Source: Ectocarpus siliculosus (lineage: Eukaryota; Sar; Phaeophyceae; Ectocarpales; Ectocarpaceae). From it: a stretch of 64,000 bases of DNA. Made by a program: the position numbers and the translations under genes. Below the pieces are notes generated by a model. The model did no database searches. It saw only the letters and a program-made list of their open reading frames with translations, and had not been told where the DNA came from. The stretch is taken from assembly GCA_000310025.1 (NCBI GenBank), contig FN649735.1:3902108-3966107 (forward strand). Direction: 5' to 3'. How positions within the stretch are numbered: position 1 is the stretch's first letter; the number at the start of each line of letters is the position of its first letter. Shown here piece after piece: positions 8,102 through 60,275 of this stretch.

Positions 8102-8137
<36 letters not shown>

Positions 8138-25389: not shown

Positions 25390-25450
25390 CTGGCGTCGAG
25401 AATGGTGCTGCAGCTGCCGCAGCTTGCTGTTCGCGCCGAAACACCCACAG

Positions 25451-25486
25451 CGATGGTGGTGGTGGTGGTGGTGGTGGTGGTGAAAG
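25451..25486 (+). repeat. (GGT)n microsatellite
   Basis: About eleven GGT units just upstream of the first recognised GARP exon. On the minus strand they would read poly-Thr or poly-His if exon 1 extended this far. I take the run as intronic or 5' leader because an acceptor-like CGCCAG lies just downstream in transcription order (exon start 25389). Confidence 0.8.
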
Positions 25487-25489
25487 CAC

Positions 25490-28210
25490 CGCCGCTGGTA
25501 CCCTCCTGCGCCGGCAGGACGTACGTGAGACCTATGGTGCACGACGTTTTTCTCTCGAAACACCGAAGTACGGCGGAAAACCGTAGAGCACCTGGGTGTG
25601 TTGTTCGGCGGCGAGAGCCCAAGCACAGGATACAGATAGTAATTGTATAAGAGTGCATTTTTTTAGAAAATTACGAAACGGTCAAATGAAAGATTGCTGT
25701 CCGTTCGAGATATAACCAATCAAAGGTCCATCGTTCTTCGCTGTTTCATTTTTTTTGGGGGGGCGAGGGCCTGCACGGGGGGGTCAACTGCTGTCCCCTC
25801 CTTTCGGGCTGCTCGGATGCTCTGCTTTCGCGAGAACGCAGTAGAGCATTGGCTGTCCTTCGCTGACTTGGCGGCATCAACGCCACCCGAGTTTCCGCAT
25901 CCTGCAGTTTCATTTGTGGGAGAGTTGCTCTCCCGGTCGGTGTTGCGATTTGTTGGTGGGCCTTGCGTACCGTTTTACGCATCGTCTCATGCCGCCCCCT
26001 CCGTCCCGCTGGAACTACCACTCAACAGCAAACCGTCTACACTTGTAAGATAGTGTACAACAGTGACCGCGCTTAAGAACTTGGTAGCTAAGACTTCCCT
26101 GCTCAACATCGTACCACTAAAAAACATGGCAAGAACTTGAGCACCATTTGTGAGTTCGGTTCACCCTTGCAGTAGTGGACGCAAAAATGGAGACAATTTG
26201 GGGACACAGCACTCAGATCTCTGTTTACCGCACACTTGCCCTCATCAACTCCGCTGTACCGGACGTGGTAAACCTTGGTCGGCCATGCTTGAGGTAAGCT
26301 GTTACTGAGTCTGAGTGATGCCTCTCCTCGGCGTCTGACCTGCTGTACACATATGCCCTAAATTAGAACAGGAAAATTTACTGACTTGGCTCCAGTGTCT
26401 CCCATGCATTTGGGGACACTTTTCTGTCTAAAACCAAGTCATCCTTCGTCCCTCGGGACTGTACAGCCTCCCCCAATAAGCGGATGGGATTTTGTCTGGG
26501 CCTAGTAAGCTCTTACTGCTGTAGCTGGGGTATCCGAGGGTTAAGAATCCCTACACTAAAACGTAAATATTTTGCATACGCATGTGGAAGGTCGCGCAAG
26601 ACACCATACCCCCTGTACATCGATTCTTCGAGAGCTCGCCTGCTCTGCGAAGCGAAAGCAGTGACGACGGTGCCCAAAACTGGCGGCGTTTGTGAACCGC
26701 CTCGTCTGGAGCCTTTTCGAAAACAAGTACTACTTGATTTTAGGATCCTCTTTTGTGGTGGATTAGTCGGACCTTGAAGTCCGGTCCAAGGGTGTGTGGC
26801 GTGCGACCTCTGAAGGCAGGAAGGTTGTATGACAGCAGTGATGCTTCCAGGTTCATACAACTGCTGAAGAAAAATAAATACACACACAGAAAGACTACAC
26901 CAAGTTTATGCAATTGGAAAGGGTCTGTCGCAAATATTCTGTGCGCTCAATCTAAATAGCTGGTTGCTCAATCCTCAATAATCATGTTTTGCGGCGTCAT
27001 TGAACTTTCAGTGCCACACAGATCAACGCCCACTCTCGTTGAGTCCGGCCCTTGGACTCTAGACAACACGCTGGAATGACACTGCTCAAGCAGAGCGCAT
27101 GGTTGACCATGTCATGTAGCTTCGACTGTGGGTATATCTCGAATGGGTAGTCTTTCTGTGTGTGTATTCATTTTCCCTTAATACATGCATGCGGATATAC
27201 TCAGCAGGCTGCTGGTCTGAACGGCTGCATCGTCTGCTTGGATCCCTCACTAGTCCCGAGTTTGGAACCTCTCTCTATTCTCTACTCTTGTGTGTTTTGA
27301 CGAGACCAAATGATGGGGGGGGCAGGTCATCTCACACACAGCATTACACCAACATATCCCTGTGAGGGAGCGTGTACACCAACGCCTGCAAAACGAATTT
27401 TCCAGCAAAGATGTTCCCCGTCGCGAGAGCTGGTACTCCGAAATTCGGCGGGCAGCGAGGAAGTATAGTAGCTGCTGTGCTGATCGCTGTGAATAGTTGC
27501 CCCCTAGACTACATGTAGAGACTTCAGCTGCCCGCTGTGCTCGGTGTGGGATTTTCAAATGCTGGCTGATGCTGGGTTGTGCGCGTCAGCTGTTTCTCTC
27601 TCCCAGATGCACAAGAGGGGCAGATCGAGGCACTCCAGACTGAACGGAACCATCCAAGGAGCTTCTCGGGACACCGCAGGCACAGCACCAACAACAGTCA
27701 CAGGATGGAGACCGGGAGGGGGAGGAAAGCACACCTTGGCGGCAAGGGGTTTTCTAACGCACATCGCTGCAACAGGCTTGTTCTCACGCCTACGCCAGCA
27801 AGCTGTGTAGCTATAGCCTGCACACACGTTGCTTGGTTAGGTGCATCTTGGTTTTCTCACCTGCTCTTGACCTGTTCACCGCCGGTAAAACAGGCTGATC
27901 CGAACGCGCGCGTTAAACAACAGCAGCAGCGCCGTGTAGGAAGGGAGGCAGGATATTCAGCAGGGGTCGAGACTCCTGCACAAAGGAATCTAGGGCATCA
28001 GAAGATTCGAACCTGTTCGTGGGACGTGGGGACGTGGGGAGACCAGGGGCTCCGTGACGCGACCATGTCGACAGGGTACACGTATGCCTAATACCATAGT
28101 ATCTCCTCCATGTGCCCCCTAATGTACTTGACTTGAATCTTGACTCCCCTCTCACTGCTTCCCACTTGACTTTCCCCTATTCATCACAGACACACGTAAC
28201 AGGGTCTCCA
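25490..28210. other. Region upstream of GARP gene, no supported exon
   Basis: Missing 5' exons of the GARP gene may lie here, but none could be joined in phase. The stretch contains a hairpin-ended element (26869-27176), a G run near 25757-25764, and short overlapping frames only. Frames such as 27555-27827 have no domain character. Confidence 0.4.
26869..27176. repeat. Short element with 30-bp terminal inverted repeats
   Basis: The left end 26869-26898 (GAAAAATAAATACACACACA then GAAAGACTAC) is matched in reverse complement by 27147-27176, with about two mismatches in 30 bases. The 250-base interior is not self-complementary and has no long reading frame. That structure fits a MITE. I could not find a clear target-site duplication. 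Confidence 0.6.
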
Positions 28211-30743: not shown

Positions 30744-33700
30744 TCAATCCGATGGTCTCAGCCTCAGCAAGCCCTGTTCCAGCTCTTCCAAACTGTGTGG
30801 CAGAGAGGCATCCATTCCTCCCCACAACACCGCTACACTTTCATCCGTCATCCGTTTGAGTCCTGTATTGGTCGAAACGGTCCCGGTCGACCTAGCCAAA
30901 GCTTGCTCGAGGTTTGACAGTCCTTGTCGTAGGGCGACTTCCAGCACGGGGTCGTCCTGGCCGAGGGCTAGCGTGTCGCTAAGATTATCGGCGATGATCG
31001 GATCCAGAACTCCGCGCCTCCGCATGCCCTTCGCGAGAGCTTCAACCGCCAGCTGGACGTTGGCGCGATCCACGGCGCGCAGCGGTTCCGGACGTGGTGA
31101 TGTCGCCAATGACGATCGTCGCTGTTCGCTGGTGGTAGTGGGCTCGTCCTGCGTCTTTGCGTCTTGACCGATTATCCTCCATCTCCAAGCTCGCTGCAGA
31201 ACTAAAGCGCCTTGTTCTCGCTCACGTTCACACCGGGAAGCAAATCTGGCTTTCCTCCGTTGCTGGAGCAAGAAGATCTGTATCTTCACAGCGCATGCGC
31301 GATGCTGGATCGTTTTCACTCTAGATTTGTGCCCCCGGTACGCGGCCTGAATCATTGTGGCTGCATGGCATTCGTCCTGTTCCAATAGAAGTGTGCTCAA
31401 GTGTATGCGACATCGCCGGCCGCGGCAAGCTGCCTGAATCCTTGTGGCAGCCGCGCGTTCTTTCCGATGCATGTCCAATATCGCCCTTGTCTTCACCAGG
31501 GAGATATACTGGCGAGCAACCGCCTGAATTCTGGTAGCGGCCGCTGACTTCCGTCTCTTCCTTATTGCCGACAACGTCACCGAGAGCCCTCCCATGAACT
31601 TCCAGAGGGTGAGGGCCGCGGCGACGTGTTGACGGTGCTTCTTGCGCCTCAACAGGTGTCTCCACATCGCATACTGTAGGGTCGCGGCTGCCCGATTCTG
31701 TCGCCGGACTTTCCGCCTCTGCCCTACCACCCGGCGCGCCACCCAGGCCCTGGCCGAGCGCTGAAGGACGTTCGCAGCGTCGAGGATCTTCTTCCTTTCC
31801 TTGCGGCAGTGCTTGACCCGTACACTGGAGCGGTATGCGCTCTGAAGGAGATTGGCAGCCCTCCTCCGACGTGTATTAAAAACGAACCGCCTCGCCGCTT
31901 CCTGTCAGAAAATTGTGCGTTTTATGAGCGGAGACAGCCAGTGGGGAGGAGAGGGGTGCAGAACGTGGCGAAGGTTTTCCTCATGCTGCTTGTCTACATT
32001 TGTGGTGGTGGGAATGCACCATCAAAAACCTCGGTGTACTGAAGTGCACTCCAACCCCCGTGCCCCCGCTCCGACCCTCTGCCCAATATGGCATGTTGTC
32101 ATTCGCGACCGACCTGGACTTCCCCCGGTGCAGATTGTCGTGGGGTAGCCATCGAGACGGAAGTAGGTAAATTGGAGATAGGTGCTCGAGAGCATGTGTG
32201 TGTGATGACAAGAGTTTATTCCGTTCATATATATATACGAGAGGGGTACTGAGAGGCAAATCACTCGCAAGACTGCATGCGATATGATATTCAACACCAC
32301 TTAACGGTAGAAATGACACCAGCACCTGTAGTATCCCAACAGCAAGCCTCCGCTGGAAACAGTTGCGTTGAGCGCGCCATCTCCGGTAGTTGGCTTCAAC
32401 CTTCACCGAAGCTGAGCGCAGCAACACGTAAGCCCGCCGCAGCGCAAGACGTCGTCGATATTTCTGAAGCGTCGTGGCCGCTTCACGCCTACACCTATTA
32501 ATTTTCATTGTACAGTAGAGGCAGGCAGAACGACGAAAGCATGAATTCAACATTCTCAGAAGGAGCCGCTAATCATTTTCAAAGTCGTGGGTAGTGCTCT
32601 TCATCTACCAGATAGTGCTCAATGCCGTCGCAATAAGTCTCCCCCCACCGGCGTGCAGGAGGGTTCCAAGTCGCTCAACCACCCATTGGTGTTGCGTGCG
32701 TAGACGGGAGTAAATTGTGAAGGATGTAGCGCTTAACTCGTGCTTGCTGCTAGGCTGGGATAAGATTTAACACGCGTAGAGGAGGGTAACCCTCAAACCC
32801 TTAGGATTGATGCCGGATCATACCGCCCCTTCATGAACGACATCCGAACACGACTTCACTCCATGTAGTGGAACATGATTTCCTCGAACCCGACAGAACA
32901 GAGGACTGGTTGGGGGAGCGAGTGCTTTTTAGGGTGCGGCAATTGAGGGGGGAGCGTGAGGAAGTAGGCAGGTGATTGCCAATTGTTGTTGTGTGAATCT
33001 ACATGGATCCAGTCACTGTAACATTCAAATGCCACAATGTTTGGTTAAGGCAAGAGGGATGCCGTCATCAGTGAATTCTCGTGGTTGTACTTTGTAGTTC
33101 CGTAGCAAACCTGAACTTTGCAAATGCCATGGCTGTCGCAGTTGCAATAGGACCAGGACTATAGGACTGTTGGCCAACGTTTCTGGTTCGGATTAGTATC
33201 GGGCTGGCGTGCGGATTTTGTGTGAAAGACAAAATGGGTGACCATACAAGAGAGAACCAACCAAGTTCGGAGGGATTCCTGCTCTTACACGAGAGCAAGG
33301 GCACGCGGACAGCTCGCCAACAGCTCGGCAAACGGGCAGCCGACAAATTTGGTTGCTCCGTACGCCGTACTTTTTGATGGCCTCCGATGAAAGCGTAAAG
33401 GTGTTCCTTAGCACCGTGTTCACCTGAGGTGAGCTACGAGCTCGTCGTATACCCTCTTCCGCTGCAAGTGTCCGCGCACGATGGCCTGCACCAATGTTGC
33501 TCGCACCCGATGGACTGCTAGTCGTTGTCGGGTTGACCTGGGATTTGGCAGGAGCATTTTGGGATTGGCAGAGCTGTGTGTACAGGCGACCCAGGGCAAG
33601 GGTAGTCAATCAGCGGGTGGTTTCCCTTGGTTTCCCCAATGAGTTTTTTTTCTAGCCAAGTGCCGCTATCTTCAGTGGGGTTGACTTTAGCTGCTCTTAC

Positions 33701-36700
33701 AATCTTGCTCGGAAATGCAGCTGAGATACTATAGAACGGAACAACAAATGCTTGTCGCCGTTCACTTTCATTCGAATGGGTTAGACGAGGTTGGCATTGA
33801 TATACAACAGACTAAGCCTGATCCGACGACTTCCGCAGGTACATATGAAGGTCAAAGGGAAACACAGACAATGCAGGGGCTCCAAACACGTGCGACATAA
33901 GAGTATCCACGCGCCTGCTGAAGATAGAGGTGCATCATTTACTCTGCCATCTGGCACGTTTTGATACGGACGGATCTGTAACAACCTACAATGCTGTATT
34001 CGACAGGCGGGAATAGGACGTGGAGTGTGCACCCGCTGGCCCAAGGGGTCAGGAGTAGGATCTACGTTGAGCTTCAGATCCGGAGCTGCATTTCTTACCT
34101 ACCCCTCCACATCTTCTGTAACATCAACGCTATCAGCAAGACGTTGGCACGGTAGTGATGTCTTCGCCTGGCTTGGAGCATACTGCGAGCGCCTTGTTGC
34201 AGTGCCCGGACATTTAGCATCTCCGCCTGGGATCGTTGGCGGTAATCGCCGTGAGTTGAAGCATCGAAAATGTCAGGATGGGGTGAATCATCAGCAGCCC
34301 CCCCTCGCGGAATCCATTTCCGCGGCGGCATACGCACATTCCGTTACACCCATCTTTATGGGGAGCAAATCTTCCTTTGGGCAAATCTTGCCTTTTTCGA
34401 CCTTTTGGGCAGCCTGCGTCGCGAACGAATGCAAATCAGCTGTTCGACCCTCGAGAAAAGTCACAGCTTTGGTTGAGATGTCTACAGATGGCCTATTTGT
34501 TTCGCCAGGGTCCACGTTTAAGTTTTTTCCAGCAGGGCAAGATTTGCAAACTCGTCCAAGATTGGGCCGAATAGCCAACTCCGAGCAAGATTTGCCAAGA
34601 TTTGGAAAAATGCTGGTTTTGGAAGGATCTTGCGTGAAAATTGCACATTTTGAAAAAATCAAACGGGGACCCTTGCGAAACAAATAGGCAATCTGTAGAC
34701 ATCTCAGCCAAAGCCATGACTCTTCTCGAAGGTGGAACAGCTGATTCGCATTCGTTCGGGAAGCAGACTGCCCAAAAGGCCGAAAAAGACATGATTTGCC
34801 CAAACAAGATTTTGTTCCCATAAATCGGGGTCCTACGTCAGATTCGCTGGATGTTCCACGACAGTGGCGCAAATGCAACATGCTGCAACCGCCACCTCCA
34901 ACATGTATTGGCACTTTTCTAGCAGAGCATTCGTCAGCAATAGTTTAACCAATTAGCCCTAGAGCTGTTTCGAAAATTATCAGGGGTTTACGATCCCACC
35001 TAATGTGCATACGCATAGTCCCTTATTCGCAAGTACACAGCACGCCATGTGGGAGCTACGAGGAGTGGAAATTGCCGAATTTCAACTCCACAGGGAAACG
35101 TGCTCTTGGGACATTGAAGTTCGTTCGGAGAAATAGTATGTGTCCGGCGCGAGGGAACAGGATGCATGTTTGGAGATCGTGGTGTAGGCAGAACAACTTG
35201 GCGAGATGCGCACGACAAGGCTATTGGATGGGAGTGGAGGTGGAAATCACATTCTCTAGCGGATTCACATGTTGCAAGCGTCACGACCAAAAACGCAGGT
35301 TGGACCGCGACCCTGGGCATACCTCAAAGTACCGGCGCTGAAGGAACCCCTTCGCTGTACATTGAAGTTTTGTTGCGGCGTTTGCTTCAATCGTTTTTTT
35401 CTTTCTTTTGGACGCTATCCTCTTGTATGTCCTCGCCTTCTCCATCTCCAGCTCAAGCAGTCGTGTCCTGGTAATCGGCGAAACTCGATGGTGTGATGCC
35501 ACGGGTGTATTTTCACGCTCACCTCCGGTGTAACCAACTTCGTAGAATCAACCATCCAAATTCAAGTTCCAGACGCGATCGTGTGAATTATTCGTCGACG
35601 TCGGTTACACCTCAATATATATTTTTTTAATATTGATTCTCACACGCACATCCGGTGTCATCAACCTCCATGCCCGTTGAAATTGCGTTCTTACCTTGCT
35701 CGTGCCGCCTGTCGGATCCTAGTTCTATCTCGTTGTAGTAGTTGCTCCTCGACTTCTAACGCTCGATTTTCGACAGTCAGTATGCGTTGCTGCTCCTTGC
35801 CCAGGGCACACTTTTGCGTCGTAGAAGATTCGTTTGTTCAGGGGCACCGGGAATTAGCGCGCGATGTCGTCCGTGGATTTGTTTCAGGTTCATTCGCACT
35901 ACGTCCGCACCATTGGTAGACAGTATCACGGTCGCAAGATCGAAAGAACACGCCCCTTGACCACTTTCGCCAAAGGAAAACAATGTTGCAAGAAACGCCA
36001 GTGGGTCTCGTGCAAAGTAAGTCTTCGTTATTAGCCCTAGGCGGAGTTGAAATGAGTGGGCCACCGGAAAATAAGATTGCAAGACCACGGCTAAACAAAT
36101 GTAACGGGTGATTTGGTTCCTTATTACACGTGGTCATTTTTTCGACATCATCAGGTCCGTGCCACGACCGCCGTAGTCTACAGAGCGACCACAAGCACAG
36201 GGTTGAGTGGAGTCTCCTATCGGTGAGCTACCGAGTCAGTGCACTCTCCGTTTGGTGCGTGTTAGGGCTTCGCTTTGTGCCAAATCAGGAGTGCGTTATG
36301 TTAAACGACGGCCTGTGTTGTTTGTCGCTTCTCACCTAACAAGATACAGTACCATGCAACAATTATGTTGTTAAAGCGATCCCATATTGCTGATGGTTCG
36401 TACCTGTGCCTCGAGCATGCACGTCTGGTACTTTGACGCCTTGCGTTTTGCTGACGCAGTCTCTGTCCGAATCCAGTTCGTTTCCCCATCATCCAGCAAG
36501 TGAGCTGCGCATGTCGCTTCAGGTCTCGCCGCCTCATGTACAATTTCCTCACTTGTTTCTCCCACCGTCATTGCCTTCGCTCCCCAACTCCCAGCATAAT
36601 GTTGTGCAGGAAACATTGTCCTGTTCCACTGATGCAACGGCGACCTTACACACTCATGGCACGCTGTATCTGTATTCGGGACTGTATGGTGCAATTCTTG

Positions 36701-38281
36701 GCGGGCAGACCCAGCACCGGTGTGAGTGGGTGCAGTCGCCAGCTTCCTTTCCTTCCCAGCTGAGTGGGCTGCTGCCATGGCAGCGGGCGCACTTACTGGT
36801 CGACGGCCTGCGAACGGCTTGACAGCCACGTTTTGACCCGGCACCTCCTGGTGACTATGGGTCTTTGCTCCGTTGATGGGTCTCGATCCGTCCGAGGTGG
36901 ACACAACCTTGCGGCGTGAGGGTGACGATGACGAACGCATGAAACTCCTGTTGTCGGTGTTCATGGGCGCAGTGCGTGGCAAGCGTTGCTGCTGCAGCTG
37001 CCATGATCGTCGCGATATCGCTAGCGTCTGATGCAGGCTCCTCCTCCTGCTGGCATTGTCCGCACGCGGCCCTGAGTCCGTGTGCGCCCAAACAGTATTC
37101 AACCTGGTCGCCGCCCGACGAGAAGGGTCTCTGCCTCCTCGCGTACTCGCGCCAACGGAAAGATCAACTTCATTCGGGGAGTTGTCTCCGATCGCCGAGT
37201 ATGAGAGATCCCCGTGTCCTTCGGCACCATACCCGTAACAATCGCCTAAGGATGTGGCCGATATTTCCCTTAAACCGCACGTGCTAGAGTAACCGGCACC
37301 ACCTCCACTCCTGGCGTAATATCCTTCTGATTGGCGGCATCGCGTCGTTGGGGTTGTCTTTCCACCGCCGTGCATGATCCCATTGTCCATGTATACATGT
37401 GTTTTTTTGCCTGGGGGGCTTCCACGGACAACTCTCCCGGAGGAAGGACCCACCGCTTCGGTATGGGTATATCGAAGCTCCTCTGCACGCTGCCAGATTA
37501 AGGCCGAGGTCACCGCTGAGGACATCGGCTGATCTCCCCGTAGAGTAGCATGGTTCATACCGGAGGCGATCATTTCAGAGAGTGCGGCCCACACTTCCCA
37601 CGATACAAACCCGTCGTCACCAGCTGAGCACTGCGCGTACATGATGAGAACGGGAAAACCGAGGGATTCCTACGCATTAGGCGTCAGGTAAGGATCACCG
37701 TTGCATGGTATCTTGTTGGCTCTTGATGTGCAATGCTGGGCGAAGCCGGCCTTATAGTAGTATTGTTGGGTCGTTCCCTGCAGAACTACATAAGATATAT
37801 GTCCACTACTGTACCAGCTTCGCCTCCCATATATCACGCAATTCCTGTGAGGGGAATGCGTTCTCGTCTGGAATAGCTGCCCTTGACTACTGGCTGTGCT
37901 CACCCGTGGAATGAGAAGTTGGCGGATGTAGTCTACGATACCGTCTCGGTCATAATCGCCTTCAACGCTAGCGCCGTCGCTGCCTAGACTCTTTCCGTCA
38001 CCATCGCTTCCACCAACCCCATTGCCAATACCGACCAGACGCTCCAGCAGCATCCGCACACCGCCCTTGAGCACGGCTTGCTCATTGTACGGGTCCACGA
38101 CGTTGCCCTTATTGCCAACAACGGGCTCGGCTGAAGGTGATCCTAATGCGGGTGCTTCACGGGGCCATCTAGCTTGAATTTCCCCTAGGATATCTTCCAG
38201 TCGTACCAATCCAGTATTTTTTGGATCCAGGCCGTAAAATATGGACTTCAGTGCCCAGACCACAGCGGATAGGTCGGGGAT
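30744..38281 (-). CDS. EF-hand / coiled-coil / multi-IQ protein (calmodulin-binding)
   Basis: Exons in transcription order: 38281-37904, 37630-36404, ~35795-35695, 35467-35323, 34226-34099, 32494-32326 and 31901-30744 (stop). Phases agree at each junction (0,0,2,0,2,0). The first two exons hold EF-hand-like segments: FYGLDPKNTGLVRLEDILGE, DYDRDGIVDYI and GDDGFVSWEVW. A long Ser/Arg/His-rich linker follows (exon of 1227 bases). Next is a charged coiled coil (EQQRILTVENRALEVEEQLL, LLELEMEKARTYKRIASK). About ten IQ motifs come after it, including AATKLQCTAKGFLQRR, IALMLQKMWRGR, AATTLQKYRRRLALRR, AAATRIQAACRGRR and ATMIQAAYRGHKSR. IQ motifs bind calmodulin or EF-hand light chains, so a calcium-responsive cytoskeletal, centriolar or flagellar scaffold is inferred. 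Upstream exons with C2 domains may belong to the same transcript. Confidence 0.7.
34346..34840. mobile_element. Foldback MITE, complete copy, in an upstream intron
   Basis: The left arm (about 34352-34540) and right arm (about 34660-34835) are imperfect reverse complements beginning CATCTTTATGGGGAGCAAAT on the left. The arms are GGGCAAATCTTGCC and AGATTTG-rich and surround a ~120-base centre. The reading frames in it are mirror shadows of the two arms. It sits in the intron between the exons ending 35323 and starting 34226 of the IQ-protein gene. A truncated relative is at 60964-61306. Confidence 0.75.
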
Positions 38282-38347
38282 CTTGGACGGGATGGTGCGA
38301 ATCGTTTGGACGGGGGGCCACAGCAAGATAGAAGAGTTAGTAAATGG

Positions 38348-41300
38348 TGAGCGCTCGTACCTTGACGTTTCAGTAATTCTTTATTATCACCCTTTTTTTG
38401 GGCGCTCCAGAAGGATAAGAACGGTGATGATTCCATCTCTAGATTCGGTTTCTGCTTCCAGGTAGTTTTAGGTTGTTTTGAAATCAGCATCATTTTTCCT
38501 CTACGCTCAGGTGCCGCAATCAGTTGGAAGAACATCCGGGAGAAAAAGAAGCATGGGATATATGGTGCATTCCGGCATGCCGCCAAATGAGCTAGGGCTC
38601 AAGTCCAACGAGCTTGTATGCGCTTCAACAGCTTCAAAGGTACGCAAGGAGCAACATATACGGCATTGCTATTCTCGGTGTATGACAGCTGAGACTAGTA
38701 TTTCTTCCACACGGTCACCCCTTCCATCGCAAACGGTGAAGGCACCACAGGCGTGTTCACCGGTCCCAGCGTTTACGCGAGACGAAAAAAGTATTGGTTG
38801 CTTCGGGAGAGAAGTACACCGTTTTGACGCCGACGATACCCCCGTTTCCCCTACTTCCCCGGTTCCTCTCACCGTGTATGACCGTTTGAAATGAGAATTC
38901 GCTTGGTACGGGGGAACATCAGCAACACTGGGTGTGTGCGACGAAAACGTCACGTCCACGGTCAGTGAGGCAATCCTTTCACCCGACACCGGTTCGAAAA
39001 GCACAATTTCTCTGAGGCCTGCTCCTCTTCGATGCTTGGCATTGATCGAGTCCATGTGTTTCCCCGCTCTGTTGCCCTGGGTGTCTCTTGTTTGACGCGC
39101 TGCTTCTTGTCCTTCGCGCGAGTTGCACGAGTCGCCTCCACCAGCTGTGATGAGCGGTGTCAGCGCCATAGTGCCGCAACCGAGCAGGCAAGAGGGAAAT
39201 GAGAAGGGAGGGGACTCCAACGAGGAGCAGGATGACACTCGGTCATTGTCACATAGACAAACCTCTAGCGTCAGCGGCTCCACTTCGGCCATCATGGAAC
39301 AGTCTCGGGAAGAAGTACGACCACCGGCGGTGGTCGGCGTTGGCGACGAAGAGGACGACATTGAATCCCTTTTCCTGGCAATTGCGTGGAACGAAGTGTC
39401 CACTTCTAGAGTTACACCAGTGTCCTCCGGAAGATGGGTTGTTCCTGTGGTTGTCGTCAGCAACGGATATATGGATAGATGAGAAGCGTTTGAGGCAATA
39501 TTTTTGGGCAGTGCGCACCTGTTGCTCAGTGCTGAGCTCGAGTCACCAGCCGAAGCAATTTATTTCATCCTCAGAAATGTCGATAATACGAAAGAGGAGC
39601 AATGATGTGGTAGATGGTAGGTTCATTGCTGACGAAGAAATCTGTCCCTCCATCGATTTGCTAGGTTCACCTGCGTGTCTGGGGTCCCGACCCCAGTCTG
39701 CTAGTTGAGGCAGTGTGAGCGGGAATGTCCGACAAAAGCCCCAGGGCCCGGAAGGAAGAACCCTTACGCGAAGAAACGCGCATGTTTTCATGGCTCTGGC
39801 GCTCGCTGTCAAAGGATGCTCAGTGGGACTATTCACCCCAACATGGGTTTCGAACTCTGTCCTTTGGTGTAGCTCGGTGACGCTCCGCCAGCGTTTCAAG
39901 GTGCTGGGGCCAGGCGGAGTGAAGTGTAACTCCGACGCGACAAACTGAAGCACTCCTCTCTGAACATGTTTCAGTAGCCCAGGGTAGAGCGGTCGAGTGA
40001 GGGGGGAATTTCCTGAACATGACATGGAACTGACAAAGGTACCTCAATCGTTGCTGTCGACATACAACCGTCCGTGCAGACGTCGCAAATCTGGCGGTTT
40101 CTGTGCGCACGCAGGAAATCACTCGAACCCCCACCTGCCTACACCGCCGTGTGCCCTGACTTCAGTAATTCTTTGGTATTTTCTTCTGCCGGACACCCCG
40201 TGTGGTCTGCCCACGCAATTGGTAACCTCGAAGCTGTAGCGTGTTCGTACCAAATTTTGGCGGTCGAGCGCTCGTTCGTGAGTAAGCCTATAGTCATTCT
40301 TGCGACGAAAATTGATTGCACCCCAGAGGGTGTGACACCAGATTGAAGCGCTGAAATCGCGGCAGCACCGTATAGGAAACAAGCGATGGTCAATAAATGA
40401 GACAATGAACAAAGTCCGACAAACACTTCTGAAAAGTGTCCGTTCTCTCGAAGTATCGCAGCCATCACCTTGTGGGGGACAAACGTCGTCGTCACATTCA
40501 CGGTACAGCACCCTTCCGGAGACCAGATTCCTTTATCGGCATCACTGCTGTCGTCACCGCTTTCCGAGGAAGCCAACGGCGCTTCGGTCGAGCTACGGCT
40601 GTCTTCATGTCTACCGACGAAAGAGGGGGGTTCGGTCATCCTCATCTTCTTCGAGTTACTCTTGCTTTGAATACTTGTTGGCGTTCCCCCATGAGCGTGT
40701 CTGTCCGTGCTCATTCTTGTAAGACCTTTCTTCTCTTGAACTGCCCTCCCAGAGTTCGAAAGGCACGGTGCGAGAGAAACGTCCCCGTGGTAGACAGTGC
40801 GTACTATCCCATGGGGCGTGTCGACGTGGACCTGTTTTAGTGAAGAACAGTCAAGAGTAAGGTGGCCAAAGCAAACCGCGCACACGCTGCAAGACAGGAG
40901 GCGAAGTCTGCTATCTTGGCAGAATCACCTTTTCAGGACGCTTAACTCAGCCAGAGTAAAATGAATCGTATCCCGATCATGTTTAAGTCTATGGGTATGA
41001 ATGCGTGAGGTACATGGCCCTGTAGAAATGTGTGCCCAGAAGTATATTAATCGGACCAACGTCGTGGAAAAGACGAAGCCTATAGAGTATCTCGTTCGTG
41101 GTAGTTTTGAGGGGAAAACCGTATCGACTCACCCGCACGTCGAGGGCTGGAAGCTCGTCATCAAACTTCAGCACATCAATTGCAAGCACGCCGCCGAAGT
41201 CGCCATCAGCCCTGACAGACAAGGATACTTGTGAAGAACCCATGCGGCCTCTGTTCGAGGGGGTGCCTGCTTTCGCCGCCGCTCCATCGCGATGTTGGCT

Positions 41301-44300
41301 TTGCCGAAGTGCGACGACCACTTGAAGGAGCGCGGGGCCGCGGCCTGCTGCGTCTTGCGGCTGTTGTGCTTCCTTTCCAAACGAGTGCATGGCAAGGTCG
41401 CCGATACTGACGTGGATAATCGAAATCAGAGGAAACGCGCGGGATGGGGGTGAGGTTGGGCAATTCCTTGTTTATGATTGACACACAGCGTTTAGCACCA
41501 CGCACCCTTCGAACCAGAGTCTCTAGGTGCAGGGCGAAGGGTTCGTCTGGGTAGGCATGGCGCCTGAAGAGAAGACTTTTTCTTAGCAAATCCTCTCGCC
41601 GGTCGGCGTAGGTACCGAAGGGATGTCCTAAACGCCGTATGATACGGCGAGTAAGAGCATTTTCACATCCAGGAGTTGTGAGGGTCAGTGTCAACTACAC
41701 CAAATGGAACAAATGAAAGGATACCACATGCACAGCGCGCCACCGTTGGATGGACACTCGCAAAAAGGAGAGTTCATTGAAGAATTTGACAACGATTCTC
41801 AGATAGGAAGGGCCCTACAAAAAACTTGAAAGGTCGCTGTAGGCTTAACACACAGACAAAACCAGAAATGAACCTCAGAGCAGGGACAAGGTCGCTGTAG
41901 GCTTAACACACAGGCCAAACCAGAAATGAACCTCTGAGCAGGGACAACAATAGGTCGTGCAAGTGGGGGCACCTTCTGTGCGAGGAGAATGGAAGAAAAT
42001 GTGAATTCACACAGATCGCACCTGACGAACAGGAGGTCTAACCCTCGGAGGCCATTCATCCCGTCGCCCCCCCCCGCCCTCGAAAGCACCTCGATCTCCT
42101 TGCCCATATCTTCGGATTGCTCGGTGAAGTCATTCATGGTACCGCCAGTGCCGGTATCAGTTTGTTGGCGTTTGGATCCTAGCCGGAGAAACTCACTCAG
42201 ATATGTGGGAGGACAGGCTCGGTAGTGATCCTCGAGGTCGGAGTTGCCACCACCACGACGTTCGCTTCGACTGCTACCGCAGGGATCGTTGTTGGGGTCG
42301 GTTTTCCTGTGCTGTGAGTAGAAGCCGCTGCAGGCCGGGAAAATAGAGATCCTGACCTGTTCGAGTGCGAGGTATTTTAATCAGTTTGGCTACTGTGTAA
42401 GACATCGGACGGCAGGTTTTGTGCAATGTGAATCGCACCCAGAGACCGACTAGAAATGTTTTGTATTTAACAGGCTTCGGTATTCCCTGTCGCATGTTCA
42501 CTCTCGTGGTGAATAGTTAGAAGCATACGAAAGACGTCGGTTGGTCTTGAAAAGCGCCGAGAATGCCACGGCATGCCTCAGATCCTGTTCCTTGTTCCTT
42601 GGTCGACATGGACACATCCTTTTCACCCCGCCGCACGACCTCCTATTTCAGTGAGCCGGGCATCTGTTCGCACCTTTCCTCTGTGTGCTCCTGTGACTTC
42701 GTCGTTGACATTGTACCAGCCACGGATCGGTGCACCACTGCTCTGTGACAGCAAGCACGACGGGAGTCTCACTCTGCCGCCATTGTAAACACGGACAAAC
42801 GCACGGAACGCGTCATCAGCCGATCATGTCGTAGACAGTATCCTTTATCCTTGCCAGTTTCCCTTTGCGATGAAAACGCCAGTTTCGGACGTACTGACGA
42901 TGGACCTCGGACGTGGTGTCGGATTTTCGTCTTCCTCTCGAAAACGAACCGACTTGGTCAATGCACAGCCATCATCACCTTACCGAGCAACACCGAGAAA
43001 ATGAAATATCGGATCCGTGCTAGCGAGTGAAATAGAGCAAACCGGCGACCAAGTCTGTGTAGCCAAGCGTTGATACCCAGCCATGCTTGCCGGTCGTAAA
43101 AGCTTGATATTTGACCTTAGCCTTGCTTGAGCAACGTTTCCGATGGGCAAGTTGGCGTGTACATTGATAAACCCCTCGTCGCTGTCTTCACAATATCTTT
43201 CGAGGTTCATCAACCACGTGCCCATACCCGTTTATTCACCTGGCCATCCCCAGGACAAGGCACCGCTCGGTGATGGTCTCGCTAGAAAGCCCGTGATTGC
43301 TTGCACATGTAAGCAAGCTTCGAGGCGCTGGCGATGAGTGGCGCGTTACCACTCGTCGCGCTGCGCTCTTTATGGTGATTGACAACTGCAACAATCATCA
43401 GAAACACATGCATATGCGCACCAACCCTTTAAGTTCTCCACGTCTAGGGATGGAGGGTTCGGGTCGAGCTACTATTGATCACCATGAGATAGGACGTTGT
43501 GGCAGCCACTGTGACATCAACAGTGAAAATATGTTAAGAGCTACCCGTCTCCTGTCTCTCTTCACGGACGATAGCAAGGTGTCATTCTACCATCTGCCCT
43601 GGAAGCTATGGATCCTCTTGCCTCTTACACATGCGACTATAACCACACAAGAGTCCGTATTAGAGAGAGCATTGGATGACGACTGGACTTCCAAACGGGT
43701 GCGGTCGAGGTTGCAGAGCGAGTTCTTGAAAGGCGTGTATCAATCAAAGAAAGACCTTCGAATAATGGGCTGATCTGGTAGCATGACGTACCAGAGCTCT
43801 TTTCGGAGAGTGGCCATCACTGTCCCTTCTCCTCCCCTCGGGGCGTAGCACAGAGCTATCAGGAGCTTCGTCCAAATGGCAGGCGCTGTCGGTCGTAGCT
43901 CGCGCCTGCGGAAGAGGGATGTGCAAGGCGTGTTGCCAGCAAGGCGATGCTCCCTTGCCTAGTCTTGCCGCCGCTGCGTACGAAGAGAGCCCCTCGCGCG
44001 AAGAAAATTCTTCTCTCAAGGGTAGGTGACTGACCATCCTGGGTGTCAGAACGGCAGAAGGTACATTGTAGAGGCCCGTCAACGTTTGTCTCGCCGCAAG
44101 TTTCCAACATGAGTGAGGAACAATCTGTACTCCGAAATCGTAAAACGGCCGTTGCTAAAGGAGGAGTCCAATACAATTAGAACGAGTTTTATGGGCGTGC
44201 ACCGACAGGTTGTAAAAATGGCTAAGGTCATTCATTGAATGAAAAAATTGTCCGCCACCTTTGTGTTCTTTGGTGGCTAAGTCTTCAGTGACAAAGTCAC

Positions 44301-47300
44301 ATCGGGTGTCGCGTGAAGTAGCGGGAAAAGAACGTCACACGAAGAGAGTCGAGGCTCAAAAAGAAGACAGCGCGGTGTTCCTCTTCGAAGGAATGGTGGT
44401 TGTCAATGACTTGACCAAAATACGCCCACTACGTCATGATAATGCTCCGAAACAGGCAACACAGCGAAATCACCCGATGGACACTCACATCTGAGACCGT
44501 ACTGCCCTGCCATTGACGTCGTTCCACGCAGGCTCCCCACCACCGCCAGAGTTTTCGACATGCAATACTATTTCAGCAAATAGCTCAAGTGGCCCCACTG
44601 GGCAATCTGGATGTGTCAGGCAGCGCCCTTCCTCGAGAACGACAGTGATAATCTTCGCTCCGGGTGCATCGTTCCTGACTGTCGTCCGTCCCGATGATGG
44701 CCCTTGTGCGGATATCCCGGCGGTTGGGTGTAGGAGTCTAGGCATGACGTGAATCCTGAGGTGTATATCACACGCCTTCGATGTGCTGCGCCAACCGTTC
44801 CCAGAAAAGCGAAGAGGGTACCACCTGGTTGCACGTGGTTCGTAATTAAGCACGATTACCGATTTAGTCGATCTCTTTGTACATGAATATCAGATGAGTT
44901 GGTCCGCTATGGCATCGTCTCACTCACGCCGTGCGGAAGGATTTCACAGTGTCGTTACTTCTACTGTATCGTTTCTCACACAAGCTCTGTTGTGGTCTTG
45001 TGATGACCAAGAAAACTGTGTAAATCGCCGCTTCTTCGCGACTACAGCAGTTGCAGCCCGCCGTTGAAAAAAGCACTTAAGAGGATAACCCTCAGTTTCA
45101 CATAAATTTAGAAAACGTGGTTAAGAAACACACCCCAAACCGGACGCAAAGACATGCAACATCCGAATAAGAAAACACACGCCCATAGAGGCACGAGAGA
45201 TAAGAAACTAGGGGATGGAGCTCATCGTGCATTATTAGAAAACACACGCGCACTCCTGCCACGCGCCCCGCCATTTGGTGCCGACTTGTATTTTGTGCCG
45301 ACTTGGGGATGCGAGGTATTGAGCGTGAACTTGCGGTTCTTTCGTTGAGTTTCTGTGTTCGCACTTATCGGTTGTGAGACGATCGTGGACGGAGGATATG
45401 GTTGTCGAAAGAATGGAGAGAATAAGACTAACGAAGATACGAATAAGTCAGACGATGGAGCCAAACAATTAGAATGGTAAATGAAGAAACTCATGAGTAT
45501 TCGACAGCCAGAAGTATAAGAAACTGTTTGAGAAAAATTAGCACTTTTGCTGGTGTTTTTGCTCCAGAAATATGACTTTGAGCATAAACCCGAAAATGAC
45601 GTTTCTTATTCGCGCGCCGCACCTGTAAGCGCAAAGCATATCTGACATCTCTCTCACCCTTCCTGGAGGTGCCCGCTCTGCATCACTCTGTCACCAATAG
45701 GCAGCCACGTGGACGCCAGGACTATCTGGTTATCAGTGAGGGAATTTCTTTCTCGACCGCCAGTGGAATTTATCCCTACCCCAGGAGTTCCTTCTCCGTC
45801 TTCGCCCATTAGACTGACCAGGATCACCACGCTTCCTTGTTTCTGAGGCTAGATGACAGAAATGGTTCAGCAACACGATATTACGGGCTGCGCTTGTATG
45901 CTTCACGTTGTTGGACATTGCTATGTAGTTTGTTCTATTTTTCCGCGGCAGGAGTCCAGTGCGAGGAACGCACGTGCTGGGATGTATTCTACCGTCCTTA
46001 CACTCGAACGAAGCGTGTTAGGGGGCGGAGGGGATGAGGGCAGGATCAGCATAGGACACGTCAAGCTGTTGTAACCATCGTCCGTATGCGGATCTGGTAC
46101 TTGCAGAGAAAAACCGGAAGAAGACGAGCTATCCCCGATGCAACTGGGTAGACAACACCACCAACACCACCAACACACGCCCATGCGAGTACTCAAGATT
46201 TCACCCACACGATCACGACTTCCTATGTTCGGCTGCAGCGCTCAAGCCTTCTTTGTCTCACCTCTACAACTAGAGCAGCCACTTCCCCCCCCCCAGCATT
46301 GGCTTGTCCCGTTCCAACGTCATCCACATGGTATTGTCCCCAACACTTGTCTGGGGCAGTGCTCGCCCGTTGATCAGCAGAATCCCGTCCAATTGCGCTA
46401 TTCCGTCTCGCCGAGGAGCTTGTTGAGTCGTGCCGTGGCAAAGAGAAGATAACAGAGCATGGCCGGGCCAGAGCTGATCGCACCCTTCTGTCGAGATGCT
46501 CAATCGCCATCACCTGTCAAAATGATGAAGGCTTTTCAGACAAGGCGTGCCGGTGCTCACATGTGCGTGACAAAGCGACGCTATGGAACTGTTTCATGGT
46601 TTTTACAAAGGGTAGAGCAGGATCGAGGTGACCTACAGTGGACTATGTAATGATTTCAACAAACGGAATAGGGCATTCGGAGACACTCCTCCCCTCAGTT
46701 CTTAGCTAGAAGAAATTGCAGTCTTAACGTCGAGTGGTGAGCCATATGTCCGTCCGTCAGATCTGCAACCGGCGTGACAATTTCACCCGCCCTGACACCT
46801 GAATAAATAGAATTCTCCCTTGGTTCTGCTTCGGCGCCGAAAGCGGTCGGGAAATCTTCGGCTCGTCGCCAATGACGTCATGCCGCCACCCCCCGTTCTG
46901 GCAGCTCGCCGTGTTGGTTGAAACAGAAAAAAAGCAGCGAAGATCCAGATGAATGGTACCTCCCGAGTCCACGTTTTCTTTCGGTGTGAAGGAGGCGTTT
47001 GTTTCCCCAGCCATTGGAAGGCGAGCCCCAAAGCAAGGGTGAGAGAATTTGAGCGGGTGTCCTTGGTGTGCGATGATGGGTGGTAGTTCAAGCACAGATC
47101 GGGCGGCCAGGGTCTGGAGGGACAAAACCAAAAATTCGGGGCCGAGCGCGCATCATCAGTGGAAGAAACGATCCGGGCAGCGCACTCGTGGGCGAGCCGC
47201 TGAACGCATAAAGACGCACCATCGAACTGAGACTTGTCGCCGCATGTTGTGATCTCGCACGACTATTCCGATCTGCCAGTACCGAACCAGTCCTGCGTAG

Positions 47301-50300
47301 AGAGCAAGGCCATTGATCCACACTCTCCGCAAGCCTACGCGCAACGCTCTTCCGGGGTATGACCAAGAAGCAATCTCGGTGACTTTTAACTTCCAGATGT
47401 TACAAAGAACACGTGAAATACGACGACCGTCTGCGACTCTGCTAAACGAACAAGAATCGGGTAACAAATGTCGAGGCGACCGGAATCATACCTGTCCTCG
47501 AAATACCTCAAAGAAGACCACCGGGAGCATCTTCTGGCCCAGTATCCAATGCACGGGACATCCCACCACCACTCCATTGCCACGAGGCCAGCGAACGACC
47601 CAGCTTCGTCCGGCTCCACAGAATTTCCGGCCACTCTGCTGCAAAGGCCGGACAGCGATAGATTCCTCTCCGGATCTCCGGCTTCTTCTTTCCTCCAGCG
47701 ACGACAAAAGCCCCGGAGGAGAATCTACCACGAAATGCCCGCCTTTTCCTCCCCTTCCCTTTCCCCTGCCTCTGTCTGAGAACGTAACCCGAACCCACCA
47801 AGTTGGGGGGGTGCCTAGTGAAGAATCATCACTGTGGCCCTCCAGCGTGCTGACGGTCGTCGGCCATCCTTCTATTCCTTGTCCGTGGATGGCGAGTACC
47901 TCCAGGAGTACCTCTCCAGGACGTTGTGAAACTGTGTTGCGGGAGATGGTATTTGTCGCGCTTCCTAGCGGTGGTACCTGCCTTCCTTCTCCCAGCGACG
48001 AAACATTTGGGCGAGCTTGTGCGCAGTGGTTGTGTGGAGATGCGATCCAGGTATCGAGAGCGCGCCATGGCTTGCCGTCGGTGGTGGATTTTGCTGACAT
48101 ACTTCCGACTTGAGCGATCTCATGTGTAGGGGAGTTGGTCAGGGTACTTGGTTTCTGCCGGGACTCTGGACCTTTAACTTCCGCCCCCTGTTCTTGTGTC
48201 ACATCGCGATTTTGCCTGTGCTCCACCACAGGTGCTGTATCTGACAACGATACTCGTAACTGCACCTCTAAACGAGACGTAGCACTGGCAGTTTGACCCC
48301 CACTAGCCTCCGCCATCCCCAATCCGATGTGGTTCCTTTTCTGGCCGTTCTGTCCTTCGCCGAAGCAGTGGTAGGACATCGCCACCCATTTTGCCCCACC
48401 TTCGAAAACGTCGTTGATATCGCTCACGGCGATGGTCACCGTGTCTCTTCCTCGGTCCTTCTCTGCGACTCCTCCATGACGAAGAAAACTGCCACCGCTG
48501 CTGCTCTTGGTCTCCCGTGCCGTGTTCAGTCTCAACGTCAACACGTCGAGTTCTGTACAGGACGATTTGAGCAGTATATCGCCACATTGAGGCAACTCTT
48601 GCCCCGGTGAAAACATCTCGCCTGCTGTTGCCCCGCTTCTCCCATCGCCTCCAATATCAAAAGCAGAGGATCTTGTTTCTCCTCCAAGCTCAAGCGCAGC
48701 ACTAATGCCGACGACTCCAGTGACGTGTTGGTTCACCTGTAGCCCCAACCTGCCTCCTTCAGCGTATCGAATGCGAATCCCCATCGTCTCTACTCGAACT
48801 GTGCCCGCTGTTTGTTGGATCGCGCAGCCTTCTCTTTCCGATGGCAAAACCTCAGCCTCCCCGGTCAGCACCACCCCGAAATCGATATTGATTTGTCCCG
48901 TGATCGCCGAATATTGGCGACAGGCCTTCTCTCCTGAAGCGATCGTTCCTTGCGTACGAGAAAAACGTCCCTGTGAATTCTTCTCAAAACCCAGGTTTGG
49001 CTCGTTGCTAACTTCGCTGCGCTTGGATTGACCTTGTGGCCCCTTGCTTTTCCAGACCGGCACACGAAGATTTTTGAATGAGCTTCCGGGGCGACGCAAT
49101 ACCTCTGGCAGGGCCAGATCGCACCGGCCTACCGACCTACCCGACACGATCTCCAACCGCATCGTGGGTGTACAAGGGCCGAATTTTCCTCCCGAAACCA
49201 TGCGTGCAACGTCTGGTCCTGACGGTAGTGCTAGCACTTGATGACCCACTTGAAGACCCCTGGCCTCTCCGCCAACAAGGTATTCCACGAAGCGTTCGGT
49301 CGAACAAGAGCCGTTCGGTGTAGTTTTGCTGCCTTGTTGCTCACTTGTAGAGCGTTCGACGGTATCATGTGAAGTTGTTGCCGGAGTACAGCGAGCGATG
49401 CTGTATGCTCCCGGTTGGAGGCTTATTCTCACGTACGGAGGTGTTGCTGGGACAACACTAGCTGTAGGCAAGAGAAGGCTGCGTACCAGCACTCGAATCT
49501 CTGCACTTCCCAGCGGGTACGAGGGAATGAGCGGAAGCATAGCAGCTGCGACGTCGAGTGATGGAGTGTCTGATTGGGAAACTCCCTGGATGGCGTGCAA
49601 GCGTGAAACCCCATTGGAATGTGTTTCGCAAGAATTAGTTGCTCTACTTTCAACGGCAGGTTGTTGACCTCTCGTTTGTGTCTTCACGGCGGAGTGATGA
49701 TCTAGTTCTGAGATGGTTGTCCCAACGACTTCCCCCGGCGTGTCCGGTTTTTCAGGATCACCGCGGACAGCTAGCTCCTCCCGTTGACTTTGAGAGGCAT
49801 GTTGTTGCTGTTGCACGTGGAATTGCCCACGACCTTCTACGCTGTGGGTGCTTGAGCCCGTGGCCAGGGGCTCGATGGCTGCAGATGTTCCGGCACTACT
49901 TTGCAATGAATCTGGCATTGAAAGAGGGGTCGAGGCGCTCTTATTGCTTGCGCTAGACATGGATAACTCGAAGAAGAGGTCCTCGTCTTCGTTGCCTTCG
50001 CTCACATCGTGAGAGCCAGTGGTGGTGATTATATCCGCTCGGGTGATGTGGGGGTCAGGCGTCGGATTGCTGTTTCCGTTGGAGACAGGGAGGCCGTCCG
50101 GTACGTCTCCGTTCAATGTTCGGGGGGTGGCCATCCAAGCACGTATGGCGATGCTGCCAATTTCGCGGCTATGTTCCTCAACAGGAAATATCCTGTAAGG
50201 AGAACGCGTGGGTGTGTTGTAGGGGTATGGAGTGCAGGGAAGGGGCCTTTTCGAGTCGAGCTACAGTATTCTGGGACCTACGAATCCTCCTGGCGAGGGA

Positions 50301-50956
50301 CACGGTATTCCCATGTGACTCATCCCAGAGGTATGGGCAAGGACTACAGCATGGTGGATGGTGCACATCGCGAGACGTCGAGGCCTACTTGTAGTCTAGA
50401 CTGCCGCCCGACGAGACCGTGGCCGAGACCCTACAGCAGTCTTCTTCGTCACGCAAGAGACCGAAGAAGTAGGGGTCGACAACCCCCTGTACGAAGTCAC
50501 ACGAGACTGTACCCCCACTTATCATGCATGCCGTATGTACCACTACTACATCTCCTGAACGCATGATATGGCTGATGTGTCTCACCTTTCGACGGCCTGC
50601 TTCTCCGAGGTCCCCAGGTCCTGCGGTGCCGGCAGAGTAACCTCACCAAAGGCATCGAGCATGACTTTCGAGACTTCTGCCGAATTGCCCATCTGTTGTT
50701 TCTGCCACAGTGACACTTCCAGCTCGATCGCTGCTGAGTCCCGTTCGCCACCCCTTACCCCCGTTGCATTCACCACCAAAAACACGGGTTTTGCATTGAT
50801 CCACTCGGAGCAGATAGCAGAGTCTGCAGATGCCTGGCCATGACCCCACGCTGTGATCCTTGCGAACGCGGTAGGTTCCACAGGAAGATGCGTGTGCTGT
50901 CGGATTTGTACAGCAAGCACTGCTGGTTTTGTTGTGTTGCCGTGCTCCATTGCCGT
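38348..50956 (-). CDS. Large multi-C2-domain protein (C2CD3-like organisation, tentative)
   Basis: Exons with consistent splice sites: 50956-50586, 50192-47492 (900 codons), 44824-44503, 42306-42022, 40831-40469, 39959-39590 and one starting 39444. Further coding-looking blocks lie near 47131-46757, 44034-43859, 41390-41110 and 38592-38348, with unresolved edges. Several segments have C2 beta-sandwich character. Examples are PAVLAVQIRQHTHLPVEPTA, VERIFPVEEHSREIGSIAIR, EIRVLVRSLLLP...PYVRI, VLLEVLAIHGQGI...WWVRVTF, RWYPLRFSGNG...DIHLRI and RGVLQFVASEL. The organisation, C2-like modules joined by Ser/Gly-rich linkers, recalls the centriolar protein C2CD3, but I cannot show homology. Start: the ATG at 50950 just after a strong acceptor is possible, though a coding exon may lie further upstream. 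An in-frame stop at 43859 means one junction there is unsolved. Confidence 0.6.
41831..41946 (+). repeat. Tandem duplication, 58-bp unit, two copies
   Basis: Units beginning AGGTCGCTGTAGGCTTAACA at 41831 and 41889 differ at about four positions. They lie in an intron of the multi-C2 locus. Confidence 0.85.
47492..50192 (-). CDS. 2.7-kb exon of the multi-C2 gene
   Basis: This exon is listed separately because it is much longer than any other in the window. It is entered at a TTCTCCTTACAG acceptor in phase with the previous exon (split Arg codon) and leaves at CAG|GTATGA, though GAG|GTATTT 15 bases earlier is also possible. Its 900 codons hold the end of one C2-like domain. A Ser/Thr/Gln-rich linker of ~200 residues follows, then at least two more C2-like regions: one centred on LRLEIVSGRSVGRCDLALPE-type sequence and a last one starting RPGEVLLEVLAIHGQGIEGW. 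Cysteines are few and no enzyme motif is visible. Confidence 0.75.
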
Positions 50957-58819: not shown

Positions 58820-60269
58820 TCACTCGTCGCGTTGATTTATCACAATATGCGGTCCCGAGATAGCCGTACTCCCTGCTTCTTCTGCTTCCCTCGCGCACTG
58901 GCGCTTCGCGGACGCTTCCGCCTCCTGTCTGTGCCATTTCCTCATGAACCATGCCGCCCCGTCCTCGACCTTGTTGTACCACGCCTCCGGGTCCTTGGCG
59001 CTCTCTTTCCATTCCCCCCTTCCTTTTCGTCTCCCATGTTGAACGCCACGAGGTCCTCTCCTAGACGAGACACCCAGTCGCTCTCCTGCCTGCCCCGGTA
59101 TCCCACGCCCGCCATCGCTCCTACCAGCATGCGCTTGGGGAGGCGGTTGTCCTCCATGCGCATAACGAAGCCCGCGAAACACAGTCTCCGTTTGCGCACG
59201 GTGGCCTCGATGGTTTCCTCGCAGCCGGCCTGGATGAGGGCCTGGGCATAGGACAAGGGGGCGGTCTGAGCGGCTTGCTCCAGCCGATGCACCGTGTCAG
59301 GAACTGGCGGTGGGTCCCATTGAGCTTCGTGTAGTGCTCCGCTGTTAGGCTCCACGAGGCGCACCCGTACAGGAGAGTCTCCACCACTTCAGCCTGTTGT
59401 AGCTGGATCTTGAGCTGGCGGTCGGCCGGTCGCCTGTCGTACATCGAAACACTCTTCCGGCGGTAGCACTTCCACGCTCGGCAGCTGCGGCTCGTAATCT
59501 CCCGGTCGGCCTTCCCGTCCGTGCAGATGGTACGTCCGAGGTACACAAACCGATCTGTCTGCTTGCACCTCTGACCGGCGGCGCTGACCGTGAACGGGCG
59601 TTGCTCGATCGGCAACATGCACATGATCTCCGTCTTTGGCTCCGATACCATCAGTCCGAACAGGCCGGCCACGCGCACGATGACGGACATAATCTTCTCG
59701 AGACTCTCCGGCGAGCGCGAGACGATGGCCGCGTCGTCAGCATAGAGCATGGCCCACAGGGCCTCCACGTCCGTCACCACCGTCGTCTTCTTCCCAGCCG
59801 ACCTGCCCTTCTTGCCCGTGTACTCCACTTGTGTCCCGATCTTGACCATGCCCGCCGTTACCTTGGGGTCCTTGTCGAGCTCGGCCACGGCGACCATGAG
59901 CATCGCGGCAAAGAACAAGTTGAACAGCAGCGGGGCCAGGTTGCATCCCTGTCGGAGGCCTTGGCCCACGTCGAACCATTCCGAGTACTGCCCGTCGTCC
60001 GTTCGGACGCGCGTCCTCATGCCCTCGTGGAAGTGGCGAATGACCGCCAGCATCTTCGGGGGCACGCCGAAGCGTCGGAGCACGTCCCACAGTAGGTCTC
60101 GGTCCACCGAATCGTACGCCTTGGTGAGGTCGACGAAGCACGCGAAGACCGCAGTACTCTTCTTCCTCGCGAGCTCATGGAGCCGCTGGATCGCGAACAG
60201 CATGTCGAGCGTCGACCGGTGTGGGCGGATGCACTGTTGTAGAAAACACTTCGTAAGTACAGTATGCAT
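58820..60269 (-). mobile_element. Non-LTR retrotransposon remnant (reverse transcriptase), 5' truncated and frameshifted
   Basis: Minus-strand frame 60269-59121 encodes RT fingers and palm. It opens at [20 protein letters not shown], has the [20 protein letters not shown] motif and [20 protein letters not shown]. The catalytic box is [12 protein letters not shown] (YADD, both aspartates kept), followed by thumb-like [16 protein letters not shown] and [11 protein letters not shown]. Near 59280-59330 the frame shifts. The downstream part continues as [20 protein letters not shown] and RQESDWVSRLGEDLVAFNM in another frame, then a third frame to about 58820. The N-terminal endonuclease and first RT blocks are absent. 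It is a dead copy of a LINE-type element. Confidence 0.85.
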
Positions 60270-60275
60270 AGATAG

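Follow-up and report, generated by a model that had tools for sequence, protein, structure and literature searches.

The window analyzed here is a stretch of 64,000 nucleotides of the Ectocarpus siliculosus genome (contig FN649735.1), and positions 50956 to 30744 of its minus strand can be interpreted as a single gene with 21 exons and 20 introns, encoding a protein of about 3,130 amino acids (Table 1). All 20 exon joins in this chain are phase-compatible and the sole stop codon is the terminal one. The model was built with a home-made gene finder followed by hand choice according to splice site, phase and protein pattern, and since exons were picked for phase the chain does not count as blind evidence. 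Exons 6, 8, 9 and 16, as well as the frame of exon 7, were picked by hand and have weak sites or little support from the finder. For exon 6 the finder favors acceptor 44737 (p 0.12-0.20), for exon 7 the chosen frame received p 0.20 against 0.49 for another frame, and exon 15 has a rival acceptor at 37669 (p 0.34-0.36). A strong acceptor (6.8) lies immediately before exon 1, so further upstream exons are possible. Exons 2, 15 and 21 are the solid parts of the model and lie within open frames of 924, 432 and 386 codons, respectively; no open frame exceeded 330 codons when these 20.2 kb were simulated 200 times with a first-order Markov model. A fourth open frame of 296 codons (38672-39559) was equaled or exceeded in 3 of the 200 simulations. 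The long open frames and the phase-consistent chain bear out the preliminary description of this DNA, made from the letters alone, in placing all exons on one strand.

Table 1. Exons of the proposed gene and other features of the window (coordinates are positions in the window; p, gene finder probability).
Feature	Coordinates	Strand	Basis and remarks
Exon 1	50586..50956	-	splice scores, frame and gene finder; first in-frame ATG at 50950
Exon 2	47492..50192	-	2701 nt, within the 924-codon open frame; C2-like by eye only
Exon 3	46787..47113	-	phase 0 on both sides; p 0.54-0.74
Exon 4	46262..46513	-	p 1.00
Exon 5	45658..45842	-	p 0.77-0.84
Exon 6	44489..44824	-	hand-chosen by frame and phase; weak acceptor (1.6)
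Exon 7	43792..43905	-	acceptor 8.5; frame hand-chosen
Exon 8	43240..43299	-	60 nt, hand-chosen; weak acceptor (0.9); p 0.14
Exon 9	42627..42773	-	hand-chosen; finder takes acceptor 42742 instead
Exon 10	42022..42327	-	p 0.70-0.71
Exon 11	41133..41406	-	p 0.97-0.99
Exon 12	40469..40831	-	p 0.21-0.45; rival end at donor 40512, p 0.48-0.73
Exon 13	38873..39424	-	last C2-like exon; donor 38873 score 6.0, phase 0
Exon 14	37904..38281	-	EF-hand-like, degenerate; form starting at 38130 has p 0.92
Exon 15	36404..37630	-	432-codon open frame; p 0.57-0.58
Exon 16	35695..35795	-	coiled-coil-like; weak acceptor, strong donor (7.2)
Exon 17	35323..35467	-	first IQ motif
Exon 18	34099..34226	-	IQ motifs
Exon 19	33424..33537	-	IQ motif
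Exon 20	32326..32488	-	IQ motif; weak acceptor (1.2)
Exon 21	30744..31901	-	IQ array and C-terminal tail; stop TGA 30746-30744
Inverted repeat, intron 17/18	34361-34527 and 34653-34819		167-nt arms, 86% complementary, 125 nt apart
Open frame, 508 codons	2527-4050	+	membrane-like stretch
Predicted protein with Lys-Ala-Ala-Pro-rich repeats	~5838-12698	+	begins MKTGLAFIAMAVAAEAFVTPSG
18-nt repeat array	12500-12699		encodes the Lys-Ala-Ala-Pro-rich repeats
GARP/MYB gene	17199-25505	-	separate gene; start encodes a GARP/MYB-type DNA-binding domain
Reverse transcriptase	59124-60335	-	Pfam RVT_1, E 1.6e-23

The window is eukaryotic, and its composition and introns are in keeping with a brown alga. 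GC content lies between 0.49 and 0.61 per 2 kb, and the introns of the model have a median length of 479 nt and a mean of 541 nt; published averages for brown algae are 54-56% GC, an intron length of 530-740 bp and 7-10 introns in each gene (PMC6418280). A scan of the window detected no tRNA, and no Rfam family reached gathering level. The inverted repeat between exons 17 and 18 is perhaps a small mobile element. Other parts of the window carry distinct genes. The GARP/MYB segment of the next gene matched ARR10-B (E 1.3e-7) and ARR1 (E 1.5e-7) among PDB sequences, and this 155-aa segment had no Pfam match at E up to 0.01. The reverse transcriptase probably belongs to a non-LTR retroelement. 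The start of the plus-strand protein with Lys-Ala-Ala-Pro-rich repeats resembles the bipartite signal that directs proteins to the plastid in algae whose plastids are secondary; neither this protein nor the 493-aa protein predicted from the 508-codon frame had a Pfam match at E up to 0.01.

The IQ array at the C-terminal end of the proposed protein is real and far above chance. The Pfam IQ family (PF00612) was found in 6 stretches at E 9.8e-12, with 44 bits against a family cut-off of 20.3, and at E 2.9e-8 when 30747-31904 was searched. Counting by pattern gave 7 strict motifs, against a mean of 1.49 and a maximum of 6 in shuffled sequences, and 14 loose motifs, against a mean of 2.43 and a maximum of 9. 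None of 1,000 shuffles reached either count, and the ten motifs of the preliminary description are a fair middle value. IQ arrays are helices carrying calmodulin-like light chains, and the usual ligand of an IQ motif is calmodulin or centrin, not calcium. By its sequence, the array would be a putative binding site for light chains of the calmodulin or centrin type.

The segment preceding the IQ array had been described as containing EF-hands, of which a weak, degenerate EF-like segment is what stands. One family, SAPC2_N (PF25825), matched 35 residues (profile positions 7-37 of 80) at E 0.034, scoring 14.4 bits where the family cut-off is 27, and at E 0.057, likewise below cut-off, in another Pfam scan; with nine proteins scanned, a match as good as E 0.034 to something is unsurprising. 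No canonical 12-residue EF loop was found in the whole model with the PROSITE pattern PS00018, and comparison of the EF part with PDB sequences gave two chance-level matches (E 0.47 and 0.79). AlphaFold predicted four helices for the EF stretch, taken from a single exon, at a low mean pLDDT of 44.2. Exon 15 is mostly low-complexity and has a degenerate EF-like segment at its start.

The front half of the protein had been credited with many C2 domains, an assignment that neither Pfam nor a C2 profile nor AlphaFold could confirm. Seven segments searched at E up to 10 had no Pfam C2 family among the matches listed (HMMER filters remove most matches above E 0.1), and neither did a 1023-aa front part searched at E up to 1. 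When a C2 profile made from 12 PDB chain segments was applied, four segments were equaled by 58, 31, 58 and 49 of 300 shuffles and the remaining three gave no match. The front part had no match among PDB sequences, and AlphaFold, given one sequence of 427 residues taken from a single exon, produced a model too poor for fold comparison (mean pLDDT 30.4). Pfam contains a C2CD3 N-terminal family, and no N-terminal C2 domain of C2CD3 type was found by Pfam in exon 1 and the start of exon 2. By eye, here as in the preliminary description, strand patterns of the C2 type reappear at joins such as 43240/42773 and 47492/47113. These tests would also miss C2 domains that have diverged very far, and we therefore regard the C2 domains as unconfirmed rather than absent; the odds lean slightly towards the front half containing at least some of them. 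With C2 unconfirmed, EF loops degenerate and IQ motifs usually binding calmodulin or centrin, the proposed combination of three calcium-linked modules finds no support, and what stands of the original picture is the single strand, a probable single gene and the IQ array.

Whether the C2-like and EF/IQ parts belong together depends on the junction near 38.3 kb, where the preliminary description had noted a phase mismatch between an exon ending near 38348, which we take to be donor 38361 (phase 1 from ATG 38493), and an exon starting at 38281. The mismatch is avoidable, as donor 38873 and acceptor 38281 (score 2.1) are both in phase 0. The resulting junction intron measures 591 nt; the other 19 introns span 227-1096 nt. 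Donors 38983 or 38761 joined to acceptor 38130 likewise keep the phase (phase 1). The finder itself settles on acceptor 38130 (p 0.92), combined with donors 38761, 38818, 38983 or 38713, and donor 38873 stayed below p 0.06, for which reason we hold the join more firmly than its exact sites; a junction at precisely 38873-38281 is an even bet. Use of acceptor 38130 would remove the first EF-like loop. Over its first 50 codons, exon 14 has a coding score of -0.97 (introns average -4.20 and exons 3.18), and since 334 of 1,818 open intron windows score as high, this loop may be intron. The motif TACTAAC upstream of acceptor 38281 was considered as branch-point evidence and set aside, such motifs being neither uniform nor exclusive in the other introns.

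The home-made finder leans towards fusing. Its uncalibrated best parse merged reverse transcriptase, locus and next gene into one protein of 3856 aa, which we rejected as an artefact. Because of this over-fusion, a tunable gene-boundary bonus was raised stepwise and joined parses were sampled at bonus 0, 2, 4 and 6. The join between the C2 and EF parts was retained in 150/150, 149/150, 123/149 and 46/149 parses, respectively, and was the firmest of six joins at all four settings. The outer neighbors were joined to the locus in 69/146, 12/148, 1/146 and 0/146 parses (reverse transcriptase to C2 part) and in 79/150, 18/150, 3/150 and 0/150 (IQ part to the next gene, that of the transcription factor). 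Bonus 2 is thus the setting at which both mostly separate, and the C2 and EF parts were still joined there in all parses but one. Joins internal to the C2 part were kept in 145/146, 129/147, 78/145 and 2/146 parses, and those within the next gene in 148/150, 129/150, 54/150 and 3/150. The EF and IQ parts were joined in 148/150, 120/150, 36/150 and 0/149; this weaker join is partly due to the small IQ exons, whose coding scores are near zero, and the case for it is carried by the phases and by the presence of IQ motifs. The coding model of the finder was seeded partly with open frames of this locus, which favors its exons and not the join as such. Taking together the phase-compatible sites, the firmest join at C2 to EF and the cramped space for a second start, we consider one continuous gene, as first suggested, the better reading and assign a probability of about 0.75 to the C2 and EF/IQ parts being joined in a single gene.

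The same region can be divided differently. Two tandem genes would result if the front gene ended at TAG 38671-38669 and an EF/IQ gene started at an ATG between 38535 and 38436, its first exon being spliced at 38361 or 38391 to acceptor 38130 or 38142. The ATGs at 38535, 38493, 38490 and 38436 reach these donors, which are good (6.4 and 5.0), in the phase needed by either acceptor, and acceptor 38130 (4.6) is better than 38281. There is also an AATAAA at 38385, at a distance of 284 nt past stop 38669, and at bonus 6 the C2 and EF parts remained joined in the minority of parses given above. That setting, however, also breaks up the next gene (3/150 joined) and the C2 part (2/146). Only 134-233 nt would separate the first stop from the second start behind it, hardly enough to accommodate a promoter and a 3' UTR, and the AATAAA would fall in the first exon of the second gene or in its intron. 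This hexamer is moreover not rare: 24 kb of sequence that include the gene contain 7 copies, most of them far from where a gene is proposed to end; another copy, at 30055, lies 689 nt behind the final stop. The claim that no obvious gene start separates the two parts holds only partly, as short ATG-led candidates do exist. These score near or below zero for coding, except those inside the C2-side exon, and the candidate first exons behind the stop score between -3.4 and +0.1. With acceptor 38281, the candidates behind the exon carrying the stop are only 3 and 5 residues long, and the other ATGs (39055 and 39042) both fall inside the C2-side exon. We consider two genes unlikely. One gene with two transcripts, a short form ending in the intron behind exon 13 and a long form splicing into the EF/IQ part, would make use of the phase-compatible donor, of a readable tail up to stop 38669 and of the AATAAA behind it. 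The 67 codons behind donor 38873 score +2.0, neither clearly coding nor clearly noncoding. Given its frequency around the gene, one AATAAA in about 390 nt is unremarkable, and this proposal appears very unlikely.

A stricter version of the single-gene explanation, and one compatible with it, takes the front half as a true member of the C2CD3/SAS-1 family and the gene as a C2CD3 orthologue with an EF/IQ tail. In human C2CD3 there are several C2 domains, and the C-terminal region of that protein lies at the luminal ring together with SFI1 and centrin-2 (PMC12707624), and several hand-chosen splice joins in the algal gene give C2-like strand patterns by eye. Against this stand the seven segments with no Pfam C2 family listed at E up to 10, a C2 profile performing no better than on shuffles, the lack of a PDB sequence match and a predicted fold that is unusable at its mean pLDDT. 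Orthology is on these grounds doubtful.

On balance we favor one intron-rich minus-strand gene for a giant IQ scaffold of about 3,130 residues. Its front half of roughly 2,000 residues would carry beta-rich, putatively C2-like stretches. Behind it would come an EF-hand-like segment of degenerate sequence, then an extended low-complexity linker and a short coiled coil, and the C-terminal part would consist of an array of 7-14 IQ motifs and a tail. We infer that the array would form a helix coated by light chains of the calmodulin or centrin type and that the front half would anchor it to a membrane or a microtubule structure. The protein might then serve as a scaffold, for which the basal body is a plausible site, with stiffness or contacts governed by the light chains. 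Our best guess is a calmodulin- or centrin-binding cytoskeletal scaffold, which may be a basal-body protein resembling C2CD3; the basal body suggests itself as a natural place because human C2CD3 organizes the luminal ring with SFI1 and centrin-2, a lead drawn by analogy with C2CD3 and not by homology. In human cells, the distal luminal ring is organized by C2CD3 and lost upon C2CD3 depletion (PMC12707624), and C2CD3 is named among the transition-fibre proteins in another account (PMC11190437).

A bolder extension would be a divergent C2CD3-like centriole organizer fused to its own light-chain-binding arm, the IQ array replacing SFI1. We regard it as improbable; if true, the alga would unite in one polypeptide what human C2CD3 and a separate SFI1/centrin complex do. 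Were a C2CD3-like part and a calmodulin- or centrin-binding array indeed joined, this would be physical evidence that two distal-centriole parts act as a unit, and an alga with swimming gametes would then offer one gene as the target for deletion or tagging. Should the front half not be C2, the gene would be one for a large IQ scaffold.

Among known systems, the proposed protein resembles C2CD3/SAS-1 in being large, in its suspected C2-like stretches and in that no enzyme domain was found. It differs in that C2 identity is unconfirmed here and in its EF-like and IQ parts. No C2CD3 is known to have EF-hand or IQ parts, and none was described in the titles and abstracts of the papers listed, nor was any literature found that links C2CD3 to brown algae or to the phylogeny of Ectocarpus. 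In the search for homologues, two pattern scans of genome contigs yielded 176 and 76 matches, none confirmed by tblastn, and three scans of viral contigs yielded 5, 5 and 0, again with none confirmed, so that these collections contributed no relative. SAPCD2, which has an EF-hand motif at residues 7-87 plus a coiled coil (PMC9066194), is comparable through the 35-residue SAPC2_N match, which is partial and falls well short of the family cut-off. Unlike in SAPCD2, the EF-like part is not N-terminal in the single-gene model and is followed by an IQ array; no literature linking SAPCD2 to stramenopiles was found. Scaffolds of the SFI1 type, with centrin- or calmodulin-binding repeats, likewise present a long basic helical array, which here would carry many small EF-hand light chains; the repeats described here match the Pfam IQ family.
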